Below are positions 2,932 to 28,167 of a DNA stretch of 37,096 bases, piece after piece. Within the stretch, counting starts at the first letter, position 1. Every line of letters begins with the position of its first letter. The stretch is from an uncultured Fibrobacter sp. (GTDB taxonomy: Bacteria > Fibrobacterota > Fibrobacteria > Fibrobacterales > Fibrobacteraceae), in contig NZ_CAMZCS010000030.1 of the NCBI RefSeq assembly GCF_947305105.1, positions 1 through 37,096 on the forward strand. The letters run 5' to 3'. A program made the translations under genes and the position numbers. Under the pieces are notes generated by a model, which saw nothing but the letters and a program-made list of their open reading frames with translations, was not told the DNA's origin and did not search any database.

Positions 2932-3615
2932 ATGATCTCTAAAAAATATATCCTCCCCATTGCCGCCATTTCTATGGCTGTTCTCGCCGGTTGTGGCGAC
3001 GACAGTTCTTCTGGCGCAGCCTCCAACGAAATCCCTGCCAGCGTCAAGACTCTGCAGGAAGTCGTAAAGCTTCCGTGCAACGAAGAAATCAAGTGCCAGA
3101 AAGTTCTCATCGAAGAACACAACGACTATATGCAGTGTGACGGTGCCCAGTGGCAAACCGTTAGCGAAACCATGCCCTTGGCCGCCTGCTCTGCAGACGG
3201 AGCCCCCGCCACTAATCCGGCAAGTTCCTCCTCCGAAGCTGCTCCGGCTGGCGATGCAAGTTCCTCTTCCGAAGCCGCTCCGGCTGGCGATGCAAGCTCC
3301 TCCTCCGAGGCCGCTCCGGCTGGCGATGCAAGCTCCTCCTCCGAGGCCGCTCCGGCTGGCGATGCAAGTTCCTCCTCCGAGGCTGCTCCGGCTGGCGATG
3401 CAAGTTCCTCTTCTGAGGCCGCTCCGGCTGGCGATGCCAGCTCCTCCTCCGAAGCTGCTGCCGCTCCGGCTGGTGGCGACATGGTTTCCTGCGACGTTCC
3501 GGGCGCCATGGGCGAATGTATGGAATACGCCGCAGGCACCTCAGAAGCACAGCAACTGAGCGAGTCCTGCGTATCCGTCCTCCAGGGCACGCTCGGCACC
3601 GGCTGCGCGAAATAA
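2932..3615 (+). CDS. Small lipoprotein with 12-residue Ser/Ala/Pro repeats
   Basis: 227-residue predicted lipoprotein (LAGC lipobox, acylated Cys21). Residues about 40-85 form a small cysteine-containing module ending in a DYMQC...W pattern, which resembles modules in the FISUMP lipoprotein later in the window. Residues 97-183 are six exact copies and one altered copy of the 12-residue unit SSSSEAAPAGDA, probably an extended stalk. The last 45 residues are a Cys-rich tail with four cysteines. The start is set by AGGAG with good spacing and a strong promoter. Function is unknown. It looks like an abundant surface lipoprotein, judging only from the promoter and the strong terminator. Confidence 0.8.
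   Translation: MISKKYILPIAAISMAVLAGCGDDSSSGAASNEIPASVKTLQEVVKLPCNEEIKCQKVLIEEHNDYMQCDGAQWQTVSETMPLAACSADGAPATNPASSSSEAAPAGDASSSSEAAPAGDASSSSEAAPAGDASSSSEAAPAGDASSSSEAAPAGDASSSSEAAPAGDASSSSEAAAAPAGGDMVSCDVPGAMGECMEYAAGTSEAQQLSESCVSVLQGTLGTGCAK
3220..3480 (+). repeat. In-frame tandem repeat, 36-bp unit, six copies plus one variant
   Basis: Six 36-bp units at 3220-3435 differ only at a few third-codon positions. A longer variant copy (45 bp) follows at 3436-3480. All units keep the reading frame, so copy-number change would lengthen or shorten the stalk without breaking the gene. There are no unique spacers, so this is not a CRISPR array. Confidence 0.95.
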
Positions 3616-13469: not shown

Positions 13470-13808
13470 TTATTCAGCGTCTTTTTTCTTGCCGCTGAAC
13501 TTGTTCACCACGTCGGGGACAATATCCATGACCTTCCCGACAAGCGAACTGTCCTTGCTGATAGGCATGATGCGCACATCGTCGCCCCTGATGACAAGGA
13601 ACGCCACCGGTTCCACAGAAGCGCCACCGCCGGAGGCAGATGTGTCTCCCTTGGACTGGTGACCGCCGAAACCGAAGCCGACCGAGACACGGCTCACGGG
13701 AACAATCGTCGATTCACCCGCCTGGATGGGTTTTCCGATAACCGTCTCCGCCTGAGTAATGAAACGGAGCTTTTCCAAAAGAGTTTCTGCAAGTTTTTCA
13801 ATAGCCAT
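13470..13808 (-). CDS. GerW/YtfJ-family protein
   Basis: 112-residue cytoplasmic protein of the GerW (YtfJ, PF09579) family. Visible marks are the N-terminal helix, GKPIQAGESTIVPVSRVSVGFG, a Gly-rich GGGASVEPVAFLVI stretch and a hydrophilic Lys-rich end. The family was named from spore germination in Bacillus but is widespread in non-spore-formers, where its role is unknown; nothing here suggests sporulation. The start at 13806-13808 has no recognisable ribosome site, so translation initiation may be weak or leader-dependent. The adjacent upstream region is the heptamer-repeat locus. The GLUG gene begins 77 bases downstream on the same strand. Confidence 0.82.
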   Translation of the reverse strand: MAIEKLAETLLEKLRFITQAETVIGKPIQAGESTIVPVSRVSVGFGFGGHQSKGDTSASGGGASVEPVAFLVIRGDDVRIMPISKDSSLVGKVMDIVPDVVNKFSGKKKDAE

Positions 13809-13824
13809 GCTGTTAATATAGTAT

Positions 13825-14011
13825 AGACGAGAGACGAAAGACGAGAGACGAGAGAAAAAAAGGGGGAGAATAGTAGGAAGTAGACAGTAGGAAGTGATTA
13901 GAGACTAGAATCTAGAGGCTAGGGAGAAATATCACGGCTTCGCCGTCTTATATTGACGCACGAAGTGCGTGATTCTTTTCACTAGCCTCTAGCTCCTAAT
14001 CTCTAGTCTCT
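13825..14011. repeat. Heptamer-repeat locus 1 (convergent AG-heptamer arrays)
   Basis: Intergenic DNA in register with a seven-base period. Four near-identical AGACGAG-type units lie at 13825-13852. After a break come eight units at 13872-13927, all beginning AG (for example AGTAGGA, AGAGGCT). Five units in the opposite orientation lie at 13977-14011 (for example AGAGACT read on minus). The arms pair: CTAGAGGCTAG (13912-13922) with its exact complement at 13982-13992, and 13901-13909 with 14002-14010. The locus begins 15 bases after the stop of the minus-strand lipoprotein gene and reaches to the gerW start, so it may act as a terminator or insulator. Confidence 0.8.
13931..13973. other. Nested hairpins at the apex of heptamer locus 1
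   Basis: Between the two heptamer arms, ATCACG (13931-13936) can pair with CGTGAT (13968-13973). Alternatively two small hairpins form: ACGGC-TTC-GCCGT (13934-13946) and ACGCAC-GAA-GTGCGT (13956-13970). The whole locus could fold as a branched or cloverleaf-like structure in DNA or RNA. Confidence 0.55.
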
Positions 14012-14026
14012 ATTCTCACGCCTCGA

Positions 14027-14860
14027 TCAATACCTCGCTTCGTAGATGCGGTCGCTGGCTGTTTTGAACTTTTTGGCCAAATCAGCCCACGAGAGGTAGC
14101 CCCAGACCACGGCCACACGGCCGCCCGCCATTTGCTGGGCCATGCCGTTTCCGTTGTTCCCGGCATCGAAGTACACGATATCGCTCTCCGGCTCAATCCC
14201 GACAGGCTCGACCCGGTTCAGCAAAAGAGCCCAAGAATCAAAGTCCTGCTCTTCCACCTGTTCCCAACTACGGGCGACACTCCAACGGAGGTCGGCATTC
14301 CTGTAGCTCTGCACAAGCACCGGGAAATAGGCCTTGACCCCCATGAAATATTTCGTCTGTATCGATGTGCGGCCCGCCTCGCGGAATTCAAACGGGAGGC
14401 TCAGGAATTCCTGCGGGAAACCGCCCCGATACCCCGGAAAGTGCCGGACAAAGGTTTCAAGGTCGCTACGCTCGTACTGGCGGAAACTGTCGTGGCTAAA
14501 GATGAATATGTGGCAATCGGCACGGATGCTCTGCTCCAAGTGTTCGCCCCTGAGGATAGGCGTGATTCCCTGGAACTTGCCGCTGTTCATGTAGTGGTCC
14601 ATGGCATACACGTCGCTCCGGAATTCCAGAATGTGTACGTTCAGCGTATCCCCAGGAGAAACACGGTAGCTCAAATCAATCACGCGCTTGAGTGCCGGAA
14701 TGTTGTACGTAGCGACAGATGAAGTCACGTCATGAGCAAACGGAGCAACATTCTTGTACAGGATTTTTGAATAGTCCACCGGTTTGGGCGGCTTGGATGG
14801 AAGGCAGCCGACAAGTCCAATGGCAACAAACAACAACAAGCAATTACAGACGAACTTCAT
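14027..14860 (-). CDS. Uncharacterised lipoprotein in the psd gene set
   Basis: 277 residues, starting at the ATG 14858-14860 whose ATGA overlaps the stop codon of the upstream gene. An upstream in-frame ATG (14890) would place ten residues before the signal sequence and is rejected. LVGC lipobox, acylated Cys19. The mature part is soluble, mixed alpha/beta, with no repeats. A weak resemblance to DUF6599-type proteins (an alternating pattern around EFRSDVYAMDHY and the later DIVYFDAGN segment) is a guess. Coupling to the HhH-type gene and psd suggests co-expression, not a shared pathway. Function unknown. No hairpin terminator follows; heptamer locus 1 does. Confidence 0.75.
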   Translation of the reverse strand: MKFVCNCLLLFVAIGLVGCLPSKPPKPVDYSKILYKNVAPFAHDVTSSVATYNIPALKRVIDLSYRVSPGDTLNVHILEFRSDVYAMDHYMNSGKFQGITPILRGEHLEQSIRADCHIFIFSHDSFRQYERSDLETFVRHFPGYRGGFPQEFLSLPFEFREAGRTSIQTKYFMGVKAYFPVLVQSYRNADLRWSVARSWEQVEEQDFDSWALLLNRVEPVGIEPESDIVYFDAGNNGNGMAQQMAGGRVAVVWGYLSWADLAKKFKTASDRIYEARY

Positions 14861-15690
14861 TTTCGGTTTCCATTGTCGGCATAGCCACAAAATTCAAACA
14901 GCGGGCAATTCACACAGGAATGCGTCCATTCGCGGCAGATAAAATCCTCGCCCCCTTGTTCCAGGTAGAACTGCAACGCATGGGCTGCTTCGTAAGGGCC
15001 GTTCGGGTTGAGCGTACAGAACAGTGCGTTCGCGAGTTCTTGCTTCCGTTTCGGCTCCATTTCTGCGAAATCAGAATCCTTGGCAGGGCCGAGGAATGCC
15101 AGGTAGCGGCGAGCACCCATGGTAAGCGGCAGCGGAGGCATTTTTTTCGAAGAAACACACGGCATGCCAAGCCCCAGCGGTTCGGGAGCAACCATGCGGT
15201 AAAAGGCAGCACAGGCCTTCGGGCGCGGATTCCCCTTGCCCATGAAATAGACCTCGCCCAAATCGCGCCAAATTTCTTCGGGATTGCGGCTCGCGAGCCA
15301 TGCGACAAGATCGCAACCATGATGACGCACAAAAAGTCCCACGCTCCAAAAAATGCCCGCCAAGTTTTTAAACAGAGTCCAGTGGCAACAACCAAAGACA
15401 CGCTCTGCGATGCCTTCGATTTTTCCCGCCGTCGGCACAGGGAGTGTCCAGAGTTTTTCATCGGGAAAAGCATCAAACAAAGCATTCAGCAACGATGAGA
15501 TTTCAGTATAGCTCCGGCTTTGGAACAAGGTGGTCCCAAGGATGGTCCAGGCAATTTTCGCTGTAGGGGTTTTTGCCCGTTGCGCCACATGCACCACCGG
15601 ATCGGGCACAGAGGCGAACATAGAAACAAACTTCCGTGTCGCTTCGAAAACCGCCGGCTCATCGCGCACAAAGTTTTCTACAAGCTTCAT
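14857..15690 (-). CDS. Endonuclease III-like HhH-GPD-type protein with [4Fe-4S] loop
   Basis: 277-residue helical protein. The C-terminal loop has cysteines 252, 259, 262 and 268, spaced C-x6-C-x2-C-x5-C exactly as in the endonuclease III/MutY [4Fe-4S] cluster, which strongly suggests a HhH-GPD DNA glycosylase fold. The LGTTLFQSRSY helix near residue 50 fits the LLSAQ helix of the family. The central hairpin is poorly kept: RPKACAAFY places a Lys where endonuclease III has its catalytic Lys. The following segment (PLTMGARRYLAFLG) lacks the catalytic Asp of VDTH. It may be a divergent glycosylase or a non-catalytic DNA-binding relative. The gene begins 16 bases after psd and its stop overlaps the next lipoprotein start, so the three genes are probably one transcript. 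Confidence 0.7.
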   Translation of the reverse strand: MKLVENFVRDEPAVFEATRKFVSMFASVPDPVVHVAQRAKTPTAKIAWTILGTTLFQSRSYTEISSLLNALFDAFPDEKLWTLPVPTAGKIEGIAERVFGCCHWTLFKNLAGIFWSVGLFVRHHGCDLVAWLASRNPEEIWRDLGEVYFMGKGNPRPKACAAFYRMVAPEPLGLGMPCVSSKKMPPLPLTMGARRYLAFLGPAKDSDFAEMEPKRKQELANALFCTLNPNGPYEAAHALQFYLEQGGEDFICREWTHSCVNCPLFEFCGYADNGNRK

Positions 15691-16561: not shown

Positions 16562-16580
16562 GAAGGTAAAGATAGAAAAT

Positions 16581-16678
16581 AGGGGCTAGGATCTAGAGGC
16601 TAGAGGTTAGTGGTCAGTGGTCAGTGGTTAGTGGTTAGTGATTAGGGCTAACTCCTCGAGCCTGGAGCCTCGAACCTC
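16581..16678. repeat. Heptamer-repeat locus 2 (convergent AG-heptamer arrays)
   Basis: Ten consecutive seven-base units on plus at 16581-16650 all begin AG (for example AGGGGCT, AGGATCT), including a tight tandem of AGTGGTC/AGTGGTT units at 16609-16643. Read on minus, about four further units beginning AG (for example AGGCTCC, AGGCTCG) occupy about 16651-16678. AGGCTAGAGG in the plus array can pair with CCTCGAGCCT in the minus array with one mismatch. The locus starts ten bases beyond the stop of the minus-strand CXXCH lipoprotein gene and ends just before psd. Confidence 0.8.
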
Positions 16679-16687
16679 ATCGCTCAA

Positions 16688-17527
16688 TTAGTGATTTTCC
16701 AGTTTGCTCAGGTCTGTGCTGAACATCTTCCACAGGCGAGGGGCAAAAGGCACCGACCATTCCTTCTCGGGGGCGACACGGCTAGTCGTCTCTGCGACAA
16801 AAGAGGAATACGTCAAGAACACCAGCTCGCCATAACGCATGTCCCACAGCGACCAGACAATTTTCCACGTGTATCCACCACTCTTGCCCAGCTTGGGGTC
16901 CATCTCGACTTCCAGCACAATCGGGATTGACGCATAACGGATTCCGTAGCGAGACGCAATGTTGTTCATAAAATCTTTGAACTGCGGAGGAATCTCGCGG
17001 ACGAAGGTCTGTTCAATACCGTCACGGCCTTCCCATGGTTCAAAACTCGCCAAATTTTTTCCGTCGGCAATTTTCGATGCGAGAATATGCCTGGACAACG
17101 TATCGATGTACAGCGAATCCTCTTCGGGGAGGCGCATTCCGGGCAGCATCAGTTCTCGCTTCATCTTGGGGAATGCCTTCGCAAACAAGGAATCTTCAAT
17201 ATGCGCCAAGTCAAAATCAAGTGCATCGGCGCTGAAGCTATGGCACATCTTGCATTTCTCGGGGCGCTTGGCAGTCACCTTGAGCGTCTGGAAAACACCC
17301 ACCACCGCATTGGAATCAAGGCGCCCATAGGCAGCGGGGTTCCATTCACGGTAAGACACTTCTTTCGAAATCTTGAGTTTGATATCTCCCTGCGTGCCGC
17401 ACTCGTTGCACGGGCCGTCCATCATTCCGGAATTATCGCCCGCACCGGGACCGGGGCCGACCGAACCGGCACAGCCCACAAGCGCCCCCAAAAGAGCCAT
17501 CACGAAAAGAGACCGAATTTTCATCAT
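16688..17527 (-). CDS. Uncharacterised lipoprotein with CXXCH motif
   Basis: 279-residue lipoprotein (LVGC lipobox, Cys19). The mature protein has two Cys pairs: CNEC at residues 40-43 and CKMCH at 92-96. The second is a CXXCH motif, the signature of covalent haem attachment. Together the two pairs could instead form a zinc ribbon, which I consider more likely because there is no other cytochrome feature such as a distal Met in a recognisable context. The C-terminal half (about 195-260, IPIVLEVEMD...KIVWSLWDMRYGELVFLT) has the alternating strand pattern seen in periplasmic LpoB/CsgG-like lipoproteins; this is only a resemblance. It begins three bases after the CAP-domain gene, so the two are co-transcribed. 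The start could be either of two adjacent ATGs (17527 or 17524). Confidence 0.72.
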   Translation of the reverse strand: MMKIRSLFVMALLGALVGCAGSVGPGPGAGDNSGMMDGPCNECGTQGDIKLKISKEVSYREWNPAAYGRLDSNAVVGVFQTLKVTAKRPEKCKMCHSFSADALDFDLAHIEDSLFAKAFPKMKRELMLPGMRLPEEDSLYIDTLSRHILASKIADGKNLASFEPWEGRDGIEQTFVREIPPQFKDFMNNIASRYGIRYASIPIVLEVEMDPKLGKSGGYTWKIVWSLWDMRYGELVFLTYSSFVAETTSRVAPEKEWSVPFAPRLWKMFSTDLSKLENH

Positions 17528-26993: not shown

Positions 26994-28091
26994 ATGGGTT
27001 TCAAATGCGGTATCGTAGGCCTCCCGAACGTAGGCAAGTCCACCATCTTTAACGCTATCACCAACGCCGGCGCCGAAGCCGCGAACTATCCCTTCTGCAC
27101 CATCGAGCCCAACGTGGGCATGGTGAGCGTCCCGGACAGCCGTCTCGACGAACTCGTGAAGGTCTACAATCCCAAGTCCATCGTTCCCGCCGTCACCGAA
27201 TTCGTGGACATTGCAGGCCTCGTGAAAGGTGCTGCCCAGGGCGAAGGCCTCGGCAACCAGTTCCTCACCCACATCCGCGAATGCGAAGCCATCATGGAAG
27301 TCATCCGCTGCTTCGACGACGAGAACATCGTACACGTGAGCGGTTCCGTGGACCCGGTCCGCGACGTGGAAGTCATCGAAACGGAACTCATCCTCAAGGA
27401 CCTTGACTCCGTCGAGAAACGCCTCGCCACCGAAGCCAAGGGTGCCCGCACCGGCAACGCCGAAGCGAAGGCTCGCCTCGCCGCTTGCGAACTTTTGAAA
27501 AAGACTCTCGAAGAAGGCCGCTCCGCACGCACCGTCATGAACGACAGCGACGAAATGATCGGCGTCGTCAAGGACCTCGCTCTCCTCACTGCCAAGCCGC
27601 TGTTCTACTGCGCGAACGTCAAGGAAGACGACATCCTCACGGGCAACGCCTATGTGGACCAGCTCAAGGAATACGCCGCCAAGAACGGCCACGAAGTCAT
27701 CGTCATCAGCGGAAAGATCGAAGAAGAACTCTCGGCCATGGAACCCGCCGACAAGGCTGAATTCCTCAAGGAACTCGGCATGAAGGAATCGGGCCTCGAC
27801 GCCGTTGTGCGCAAAGGCTACGAAATCCTCGGCCTCCGCACGTTCTTCACCGCCGGCGAAAAGGAATGCCGCGCCTGGACGTTCCATGCAGGCTACAAAG
27901 CACCGCAATGCGCAGGCGTCATCCACACCGACTTCGAACGCGGGTTCATCCGCGCCGAAACGCTGAGCTACGCAGACTTCCTCAAGCACGGCAGCTGGAA
28001 CGCCGCCAAGGAAGCTGGTCTCGTCCGCACCGAAGGCAAGGACTACCTGGTACAAGATGGCGACATCATGTACTTCTTGTTCAATGTGTAG
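26994..28091 (+). CDS. ychF: YchF / Obg-family ribosome-binding ATPase
   Basis: 365-residue cytoplasmic P-loop NTPase of the YchF (OLA1) family, which prefers ATP and binds ribosomes, with links to translation and stress. P-loop GLPNVGKST at residues 9-17, the switch/G3 segment DIAGLVKGA, and an NVKE segment in place of the NKxD guanine-specificity motif, as expected for an ATP-preferring YchF. A central coiled-coil (about 130-180) and a C-terminal TGS domain (about 280-365, ending DGDIMYFLFNV) complete the usual architecture and length (363). The ATG has CGGAG seven bases upstream. No hairpin terminator follows; heptamer locus 3 begins three bases after the stop. Confidence 0.97.
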   Translation: MGFKCGIVGLPNVGKSTIFNAITNAGAEAANYPFCTIEPNVGMVSVPDSRLDELVKVYNPKSIVPAVTEFVDIAGLVKGAAQGEGLGNQFLTHIRECEAIMEVIRCFDDENIVHVSGSVDPVRDVEVIETELILKDLDSVEKRLATEAKGARTGNAEAKARLAACELLKKTLEEGRSARTVMNDSDEMIGVVKDLALLTAKPLFYCANVKEDDILTGNAYVDQLKEYAAKNGHEVIVISGKIEEELSAMEPADKAEFLKELGMKESGLDAVVRKGYEILGLRTFFTAGEKECRAWTFHAGYKAPQCAGVIHTDFERGFIRAETLSYADFLKHGSWNAAKEAGLVRTEGKDYLVQDGDIMYFLFNV

Positions 28092-28093
28092 TT

Positions 28094-28149
28094 AGGGATT
28101 AGGGGCTAGGATCTAGGGGCTAGAGGCTCGGGGTTCGAAGCTCGAGCCT
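28094..28149. repeat. Heptamer-repeat locus 3 (convergent AG-heptamer arrays)
   Basis: Five plus-strand seven-base units at 28094-28128, all beginning AG (AGGGATT, then AGGGGCT/AGGATCT types). They abut three minus-strand units (28129-28149) such as AGGCTCG and AGCTTCG. AGGCTCG (28124-28130) can pair with CGAGCCT (28143-28149). It lies between the convergent stops of ychF and the FISUMP lipoprotein gene, a place where a bidirectional terminator is expected. Confidence 0.78.
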
Positions 28150-28167
28150 TTATGTTTAGGCTTTTAC

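Follow-up and report, generated by a model that had tools for sequence, protein, structure and literature searches.

Convergent heptamer arrays between Fibrobacter genes as probable arms of S23 elements

RESULTS

Three intergenic loci carry heptamer arrays

The window, that is, the whole stretch of 37,096 nucleotides analyzed here, is contig 30 of the genome of an uncultured Fibrobacter sp. (G000; 3.57 Mb, 72 contigs, 99.97% complete). Three of its intergenic loci contain tandem 7-nt units (Table 1). Locus 1 separates the minus-strand genes at 13470-13808 and 14027-14890. The AGACGAG-type units at its left edge adjoin the TATACTATATT box upstream of the former gene, and 9 nt separate the end of its right arm from the stop codon of the latter. 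The unit types AGTAGGA, AGTAGAC, AGTGATT, AGAGACT, AGAATCT, AGAGGCT, and AGGGAGA make up the AG-started left arm, which is followed by a 43-nt core. The consecutive AG-started heptamers and the reverse-oriented units that an earlier note had described at this locus were borne out by the sequence. Stop codons in all frames were rejected as the principle of the arrays, because AGACGAG and other arrays hold no stops.

Table 1. Positions of the heptamer arms and inner parts of the three loci within the window
Feature	Position	Strand	Description
Outermost left arm, locus 1	13825..13852	+	Four AGACGAG-type heptamers; sequence and tandem repeat finder (13825-13855, period 7)
Left heptamer arm, locus 1	13872..13927	+	Eight AG-started units
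Core of locus 1, 43 nt	13931..13973	+	ATCACGGCTTCGCCGTC-N9-CGCACGAAGTGCGTGAT; two hairpins (13934-13946, 13956-13970)
Right heptamer arm, locus 1	13977..14017	-	Five to six units, right end approximate; sequence and tandem repeat finder
Left heptamer arm, locus 2	16573..16649	+	Eleven units; tandem repeat finder
Right heptamer arm, locus 2	16652..16685	-	GAGGCTC-type units; tandem repeat finder (16654-16678, period 7)
Left heptamer arm, locus 3	28093..28127	+	Five TAG units
Inner part, locus 3	28128..28150	.	GAGGCTC-type units within a 9-pair hairpin (28130-28150) that has a T-rich tail

The left arm of locus 2 starts with TAGGGGC, TAGGATC, and TAGAGGC units and continues with TAGTGGT types, while its right arm ends beside the stop codon of the gene at 16688-17527. 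At locus 3, the left arm begins 1 nt past the TAG stop codon of the gene at 26994-28091. The same plan had been ascribed to all three loci; both further loci are present and the minus arm of locus 2 is clear, but the reverse arm of locus 3 amounts to about two units only. All three loci had also been placed behind the 3′ ends of genes. Stop codons do adjoin the arms, but loci 1 and 2 each lie between two co-directional minus-strand genes, and therefore one arm adjoins the start of a gene and not only a 3′ end. At window positions 13809-13822 and 16562-16577, the arrays stop just before a TATA-like box ~10 nt upstream of the ATG. A search of the whole window against Rfam gave no match. Elsewhere in the window, the gene at 2932-3615 contains an in-frame tandem repeat (3220-3459) of 6.7 copies of a 36-base unit.

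Arrays are numerous and point inward

Across the 3.57 Mb genome, WAGNNNYTAGNNNYTAGNNNYWAG gave 176+178 matches, compared with 1 for the reversed pattern. Array statistics were obtained from about 825 kb of this genome, sampled by stretches, with genes predicted by our own dicodon model and arm types assigned by our own scripts and by reading. In the intergenic DNA of these 825 kb, 99 lag-7 segments were found versus 0 in dinucleotide shuffles, and the control lags of 5, 6, and 8-11 yielded 1-9 segments each. Among neighboring array pairs, 44 were convergent (><) and 1 was divergent (<>). Relative to the nearest gene edge, 153 arrays pointed inward and 29 outward (p = 1.5e-21). The scan thus found runs well beyond chance and upheld the proposed family of repeats, in which the convergent arrangement is fixed.

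The arrays occurred at 3′ (80) and 5′ (72) gene edges and pointed inward at both. Their distance from the 3′ edge had a median of 1 nt and a commonest value of -2, which corresponds to the AG of a TAG stop codon; from the 5′ edge, the median was 20 nt. TAG was enriched as the stop codon of genes that end no more than 12 nt from an array (27/47 versus 181/572, p = 6e-4). Arrays were present in 26% of the regions between convergent genes, 18% of those between tandem genes, and 12% of those between divergent genes.

Hairpin cores and the question of a terminator role

The 43-nt core of locus 1 has 44 exact copies in its own genome and 18, 41, and 7 copies in three relatives, with none in the remaining sampled relatives; G000, G008, and G013 are the main carriers. 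Among GTDB genomes, the named contigs that carry it were all from Fibrobacter, several of them titled as coming from goat or yak stomach compartments, and no copy was found among the viruses of IMG/VR. A related core in G006 has GTGGC/GCCAC where that of G000 has ACGGC/GCCGT, so that the stem is kept. More generally, 26 of 38 gaps between convergent arms contained a perfect G+C hairpin (0.8 expected), and these hairpins belong to several unrelated sequences. Other dispersed intergenic hairpin repeats of G000, such as GAGATTGCTTCAGGGCTTCGCCCTTCGCAATGACA (C5:11511-11773), often lie beside heptamer arrays.

A core with an inverted pair of small hairpins, present between genes in tens of copies, is reminiscent of REP/BIME-like elements, whose mobility depends on a RAYT (Y1) transposase. 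Likewise, a purine strand running inward 5′ to 3′ on both sides is what 3′-end extension at two DNA ends, as by a reverse transcriptase, would be expected to leave behind. However, the own genome, at 99.97% completeness, contains neither PF01797 (Y1_Tnp) nor PF00078 (RVT_1), PF01797 is also absent from G008 and G013, and the Y1 genes of relatives show no evident relation to array number. RAYT/Y1 mobilization and telomerase-like end extension were rejected on account of these missing domains, and we regard an origin of this kind as very improbable.

The two arms share a complementary vocabulary, and the arrays might therefore be transcription terminators or 3′-end insulators, in which the complementary arms of the transcript fold back and stop transcription; the earlier note had likewise favored a termination role. 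In the own genome, the RNA of the elements folded better than shuffled sequences (median z = -4.0), the arrays were commonest between convergent genes, and canonical terminators were weakly depleted beside them (21% versus 37%, p = 0.017; p = 0.21 with a stricter T-run). However, folding of the window loci exceeded chance only at locus 1 (z = -4.8, -0.6, and -1.2 for loci 1, 2, and 3, respectively), and some array pairs enclosed strong canonical terminators. Moreover, the arrays were as frequent at 5′ as at 3′ edges, occurred in divergent regions as well, and pointed inward whatever the direction of transcription. At loci without an open reading frame (ORF), the two arms matched each other no better than they matched the arms of other loci (p = 0.13), and the foldback therefore arises from a common vocabulary. 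Given these unmatched arms, the transcription-independent orientation, and the weak terminator statistics, we rejected a terminator or hairpin role as unlikely on the present data. Doubt also falls on the related claim that the adjoining 3′ ends lack hairpin-plus-T terminators. Locus 1 has two hairpins with T-rich tails and locus 3 has the one listed in Table 1, although the matches are weak and terminator-like sites in the locus 1 region do not exceed those in shuffles (4 versus 4.4).

Most Fibrobacter S23 genes lie between heptamer arms

Within the stretches sampled from the own genome, one array pair encloses a reading frame with a PF05635 match (E = 2.3e-38). PF05635 is S23/IVP, the four-helix-bundle protein of 23S rRNA intervening sequences (IVSs). 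The enclosed protein shows distant similarity to bAvd, and its best structure match is 2gsc. We inspected 30 PF05635 loci of the genus Fibrobacter (L355-L384), this one among them. An inward heptamer array lay beside all 30, and 23 had such arrays on both sides, whereas among 611 ordinary genes of the own genome, arrays flanked none on both sides and 24 on either side. The two arms of one S23 locus matched better than arms across loci (p = 5e-5, n = 20). None of the inspected S23 elements contained the 43-nt core.

At a single genomic site compared between species, S23 proteins were at least 68% identical when the arm type was the same and at most 66% identical when it differed. Since arm type tracks S23 identity at one site, arm and gene travel as one element. 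Differing S23 subtypes share a small number of genomic sites across species, for example, upstream of genes with products containing LIAWRYLGAQRKSLF; another lies upstream of genes whose products begin with MEGLLILIGIW.

The arm types at S23 loci were GAGGCTC, TAGAGGC/TAGGATC, TAGTGGT, TAGACAG/TAGGAAG, and AGTTATG. These unit types are also common in the own genome, where they make up most ORF-less arrays, and they partly account for the window loci, where several types are combined. No S23 gene was found at the three window loci in the ORF list or the sequence, and their link to S23 consists of the common unit types and the layout. At the inspected S23 loci, no upstream arm was seen to consist of the AGACGAG unit found at locus 1.

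We compared AG-heptads with the presence of PF05635 in 151 Fibrobacterota genomes. Within the genus, the median was 71.5 in genomes with PF05635 and 3 in those without (p = 8.5e-7), and AG-heptads were also higher with PF05635 across the phylum sample (p = 6.8e-12), both statistics ignoring shared ancestry and genome completeness. As exceptions, G156 has 115 arrays and no detected PF05635 in a genome that is 71% complete, and G058, G104, G122, and G050 carry S23 and almost no arrays.

Array-bearing regions turn over between species

The site of locus 1 is empty in G008 (13 bp versus 218 bp), and further empty sites exist elsewhere. In G047, the site holds a mosaic, and in other species, it is occupied by quite different heptamer elements; AGACGAG-type units are also present there in G001, G019, G020, and G047. 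The locus 1 element (window 13819-14026) and its counterpart in G018:C21 show 3 differences in 208 bases, with flanking genes 88-92% identical, which hints at either a recent exchange or an uncommon degree of constraint. The right arm of locus 2 is common to the orthologous site in G013, where the left part differs. The stop codon orthologous to that preceding locus 3 is TAA in G008, and other units follow it. At C4:71166, the core and one arm are conserved, and most units of the other arm have been replaced with the AG frame kept.

Across 78 orthologous intergenic regions of G000 and G008, the median identity was 0.61 with arrays and 0.85 without (p = 7e-5), and the similarity of the flanking genes was equal for the two kinds of region. 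That sister species have empty sites or wholly replaced elements is a further argument against the arrays being terminators.

The empty sites consist of hardly more than a TATA-like box, which suggests very short Fibrobacter promoters. A palindromic element, CCTTTGACCACTTAGTGC...GGCCCCTTTTGGGGG, is inserted in a heptamer arm of G008 (at the site orthologous to C2a:20036-20416 of G000) and also occurs near C4:100058 of G000.

Most plasmid S23 genes of other phyla are flanked by similar arrays

A tblastn search of plasmids returned mostly cyanobacterial S23 genes. For 18 plasmid S23 genes, inward arrays of period 7 or 8 were present on both sides of 12 and on at least one side of 15, compared with 0 and 1, respectively, of 90 control genes from two Nostoc plasmid segments. 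The convergent layout was seen in cyanobacteria, Azospirillum, and Riemerella. The S23 genes on plasmids of Nostoc, Calothrix, Aulosira, and Trichormus sit between heptamer arrays, and the arms have a period of 8 in Picosynechococcus, Leptolyngbya, and Gemmatirosa (L391, L397, and L401). The earlier note had drawn an analogy with the heptanucleotide repeats of cyanobacteria; the relation goes further than analogy, as convergent heptads of the same kind also flank the S23 genes of cyanobacteria. No arrays were found around the Avd protein, a distant S23 relative, of a phage diversity-generating retroelement. No S23 relative was confirmed in IMG/VR; phages yielded distant Avd proteins only. On three cyanobacterial plasmids (L390-L392), the S23 gene is located within a CRISPR gene cluster. 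Its neighbors are cas6 and cas4 in Pseudanabaena galeata and Anabaena sp. 90, and cas10 and cmr3 in Picosynechococcus PCC 7003.

These comparisons bear on a rival explanation, in which the arrays are neutral simple-sequence repeats, with polymerase slippage favoring 7-nt units in dispensable intergenic DNA and S23 tending to land in or near them. Adjacent identical units are indeed in excess (46 versus 8.7), arrays exist in species without detected S23, and heptanucleotides are given as the commonest long simple repeats of many bacteria (PMC4679880, citing Mrazek 2007). However, slippage alone explains neither the convergent layout nor the dispersed identical 43-nt core and the central G+C hairpins. 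Arm type, moreover, tracks the S23 subtype at a fixed site, and the arrays of cyanobacterial plasmids accompany S23 genes and flank none of the 90 control genes on both sides. We therefore consider it unlikely that the arrays are neutral repeats.

DISCUSSION

We propose that the heptamer arrays are probably arms belonging to small S23 elements of a mobile or selfish kind, and that the three loci of the window are derivatives of composite origin that lack an ORF and often have a hairpin core. A full-length element would consist of an inward-pointing heptamer array, an S23/IVP gene, and a complementary heptamer array, that is, the anatomy of the intervening sequences of 23S rRNA placed between protein genes. 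The window loci would combine arms derived from several lineages of S23 elements, with a compact double hairpin in place of the S23 gene at locus 1. Such elements would sit in dispensable stretches that separate a stop codon from the promoter box of the following gene. Slippage in 7-nt steps probably lengthens and shortens their arms, and recombination probably swaps or removes arms as a whole. S23 may recognize the arms, ORF-less copies may be moved in trans, and the elements would be selfish and of no benefit to the host. We know of no catalytic activity of S23. The homopentameric ring formed by Xanthomonas S23 in a crystal form (cited in PMC4990558) is suggestive of repeat binding, in which each subunit would contact one unit.

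According to PMC4990558, the 23S rRNA IVSs of Coxiella, Leptospira, and Brucella also have terminal inverted repeats around a PF05635 reading frame; they lie inside helix 45 and are excised by RNase III. In contrast, the Fibrobacter elements lie among protein genes, have tandem heptamers in both arms, and in most copies lack a reading frame. The IVS of Coxiella has a terminal inverted repeat of 28 bp and, just before the S23 start codon, three tandem GACAGAT heptamers whose number varies between strains, which the accessible part of that paper treats as a local detail (PMC4990558). In Fibrobacter, terminal inverted repeats are present as the convergent arms, which are matched at S23 loci; at ORF-less loci, arm complementarity is no more than the common vocabulary gives. 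A PF05635 frame between the repeats is absent at the window loci and is found at 30 other Fibrobacter loci. As a kind, the Fibrobacter elements would be an intergenic S23/IVS variant, apparently new, in which tandem heptamers form the arms, and the window loci are filed as derivatives of this element, not as members.

The heptanucleotide STRR repeats of cyanobacteria were reportedly described by Mazel et al. in 1990. Like the Fibrobacter arrays, they are degenerate tandem heptamers in many intergenic copies with lineage-specific units, but their host is cyanobacterial and their published units differ from those of Fibrobacter. STRR fingerprinting is described in PMC5088731. The open-licence literature yielded no description of STRRs as convergent or as linked to S23. 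TAACTGA direct repeats of Beggiatoaceae, cyanobacteria, and Bacteroidetes, as presented in PMC4679880, are likewise tandem 7-mers that are intergenic, genome-wide, and taxonomically patchy. Unlike the Fibrobacter arrays, they have one fixed unit and lie mostly upstream of start codons, with one indirect repeat reported, and the accessible part of that paper states no link to S23. Finally, REP/BIME elements and MITEs resemble the Fibrobacter arrays as non-coding, dispersed intergenic repeats with inverted symmetry and hairpins. However, the arms described here are tandem heptamers of variable sequence in a genome lacking a Y1/RAYT transposase, and their full-length relative carries S23 instead of a transposase. 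The open-licence literature, which leaves most subscription papers outside and so does not prove priority, contained papers on heptamer repeats (PMC4679880 and PMC4692102) and the Coxiella paper but none tying heptamer arrays in general to S23.

A wider generalization can be offered only tentatively. S23/IVP proteins and tandem inverted arrays of 7-nt, sometimes 8-nt, units might form one widespread class of bacterial selfish elements, in which the S23 pentamer ring binds the units (as RNA or single-stranded DNA), one per contact, and thereby maintains or moves both coding and ORF-less copies. Many unexplained heptamer repeats, including STRRs, might then be such arms.

STRRs and other bacterial heptamer repeats have been recognized for decades, to our knowledge with no account of their origin, and S23 of the rRNA intervening sequences is conserved across phyla with no role that we know of. 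If the S23 link is general, it would provide an origin for STRR-type repeats. Heptamer arrays would become a marker for the activity of S23 elements, and the function of S23 would become directly testable through binding to its own arms. Fibrobacter is a main fiber degrader of the rumen, and a large part of its fast-changing intergenic DNA would be accounted for if this explanation is true.
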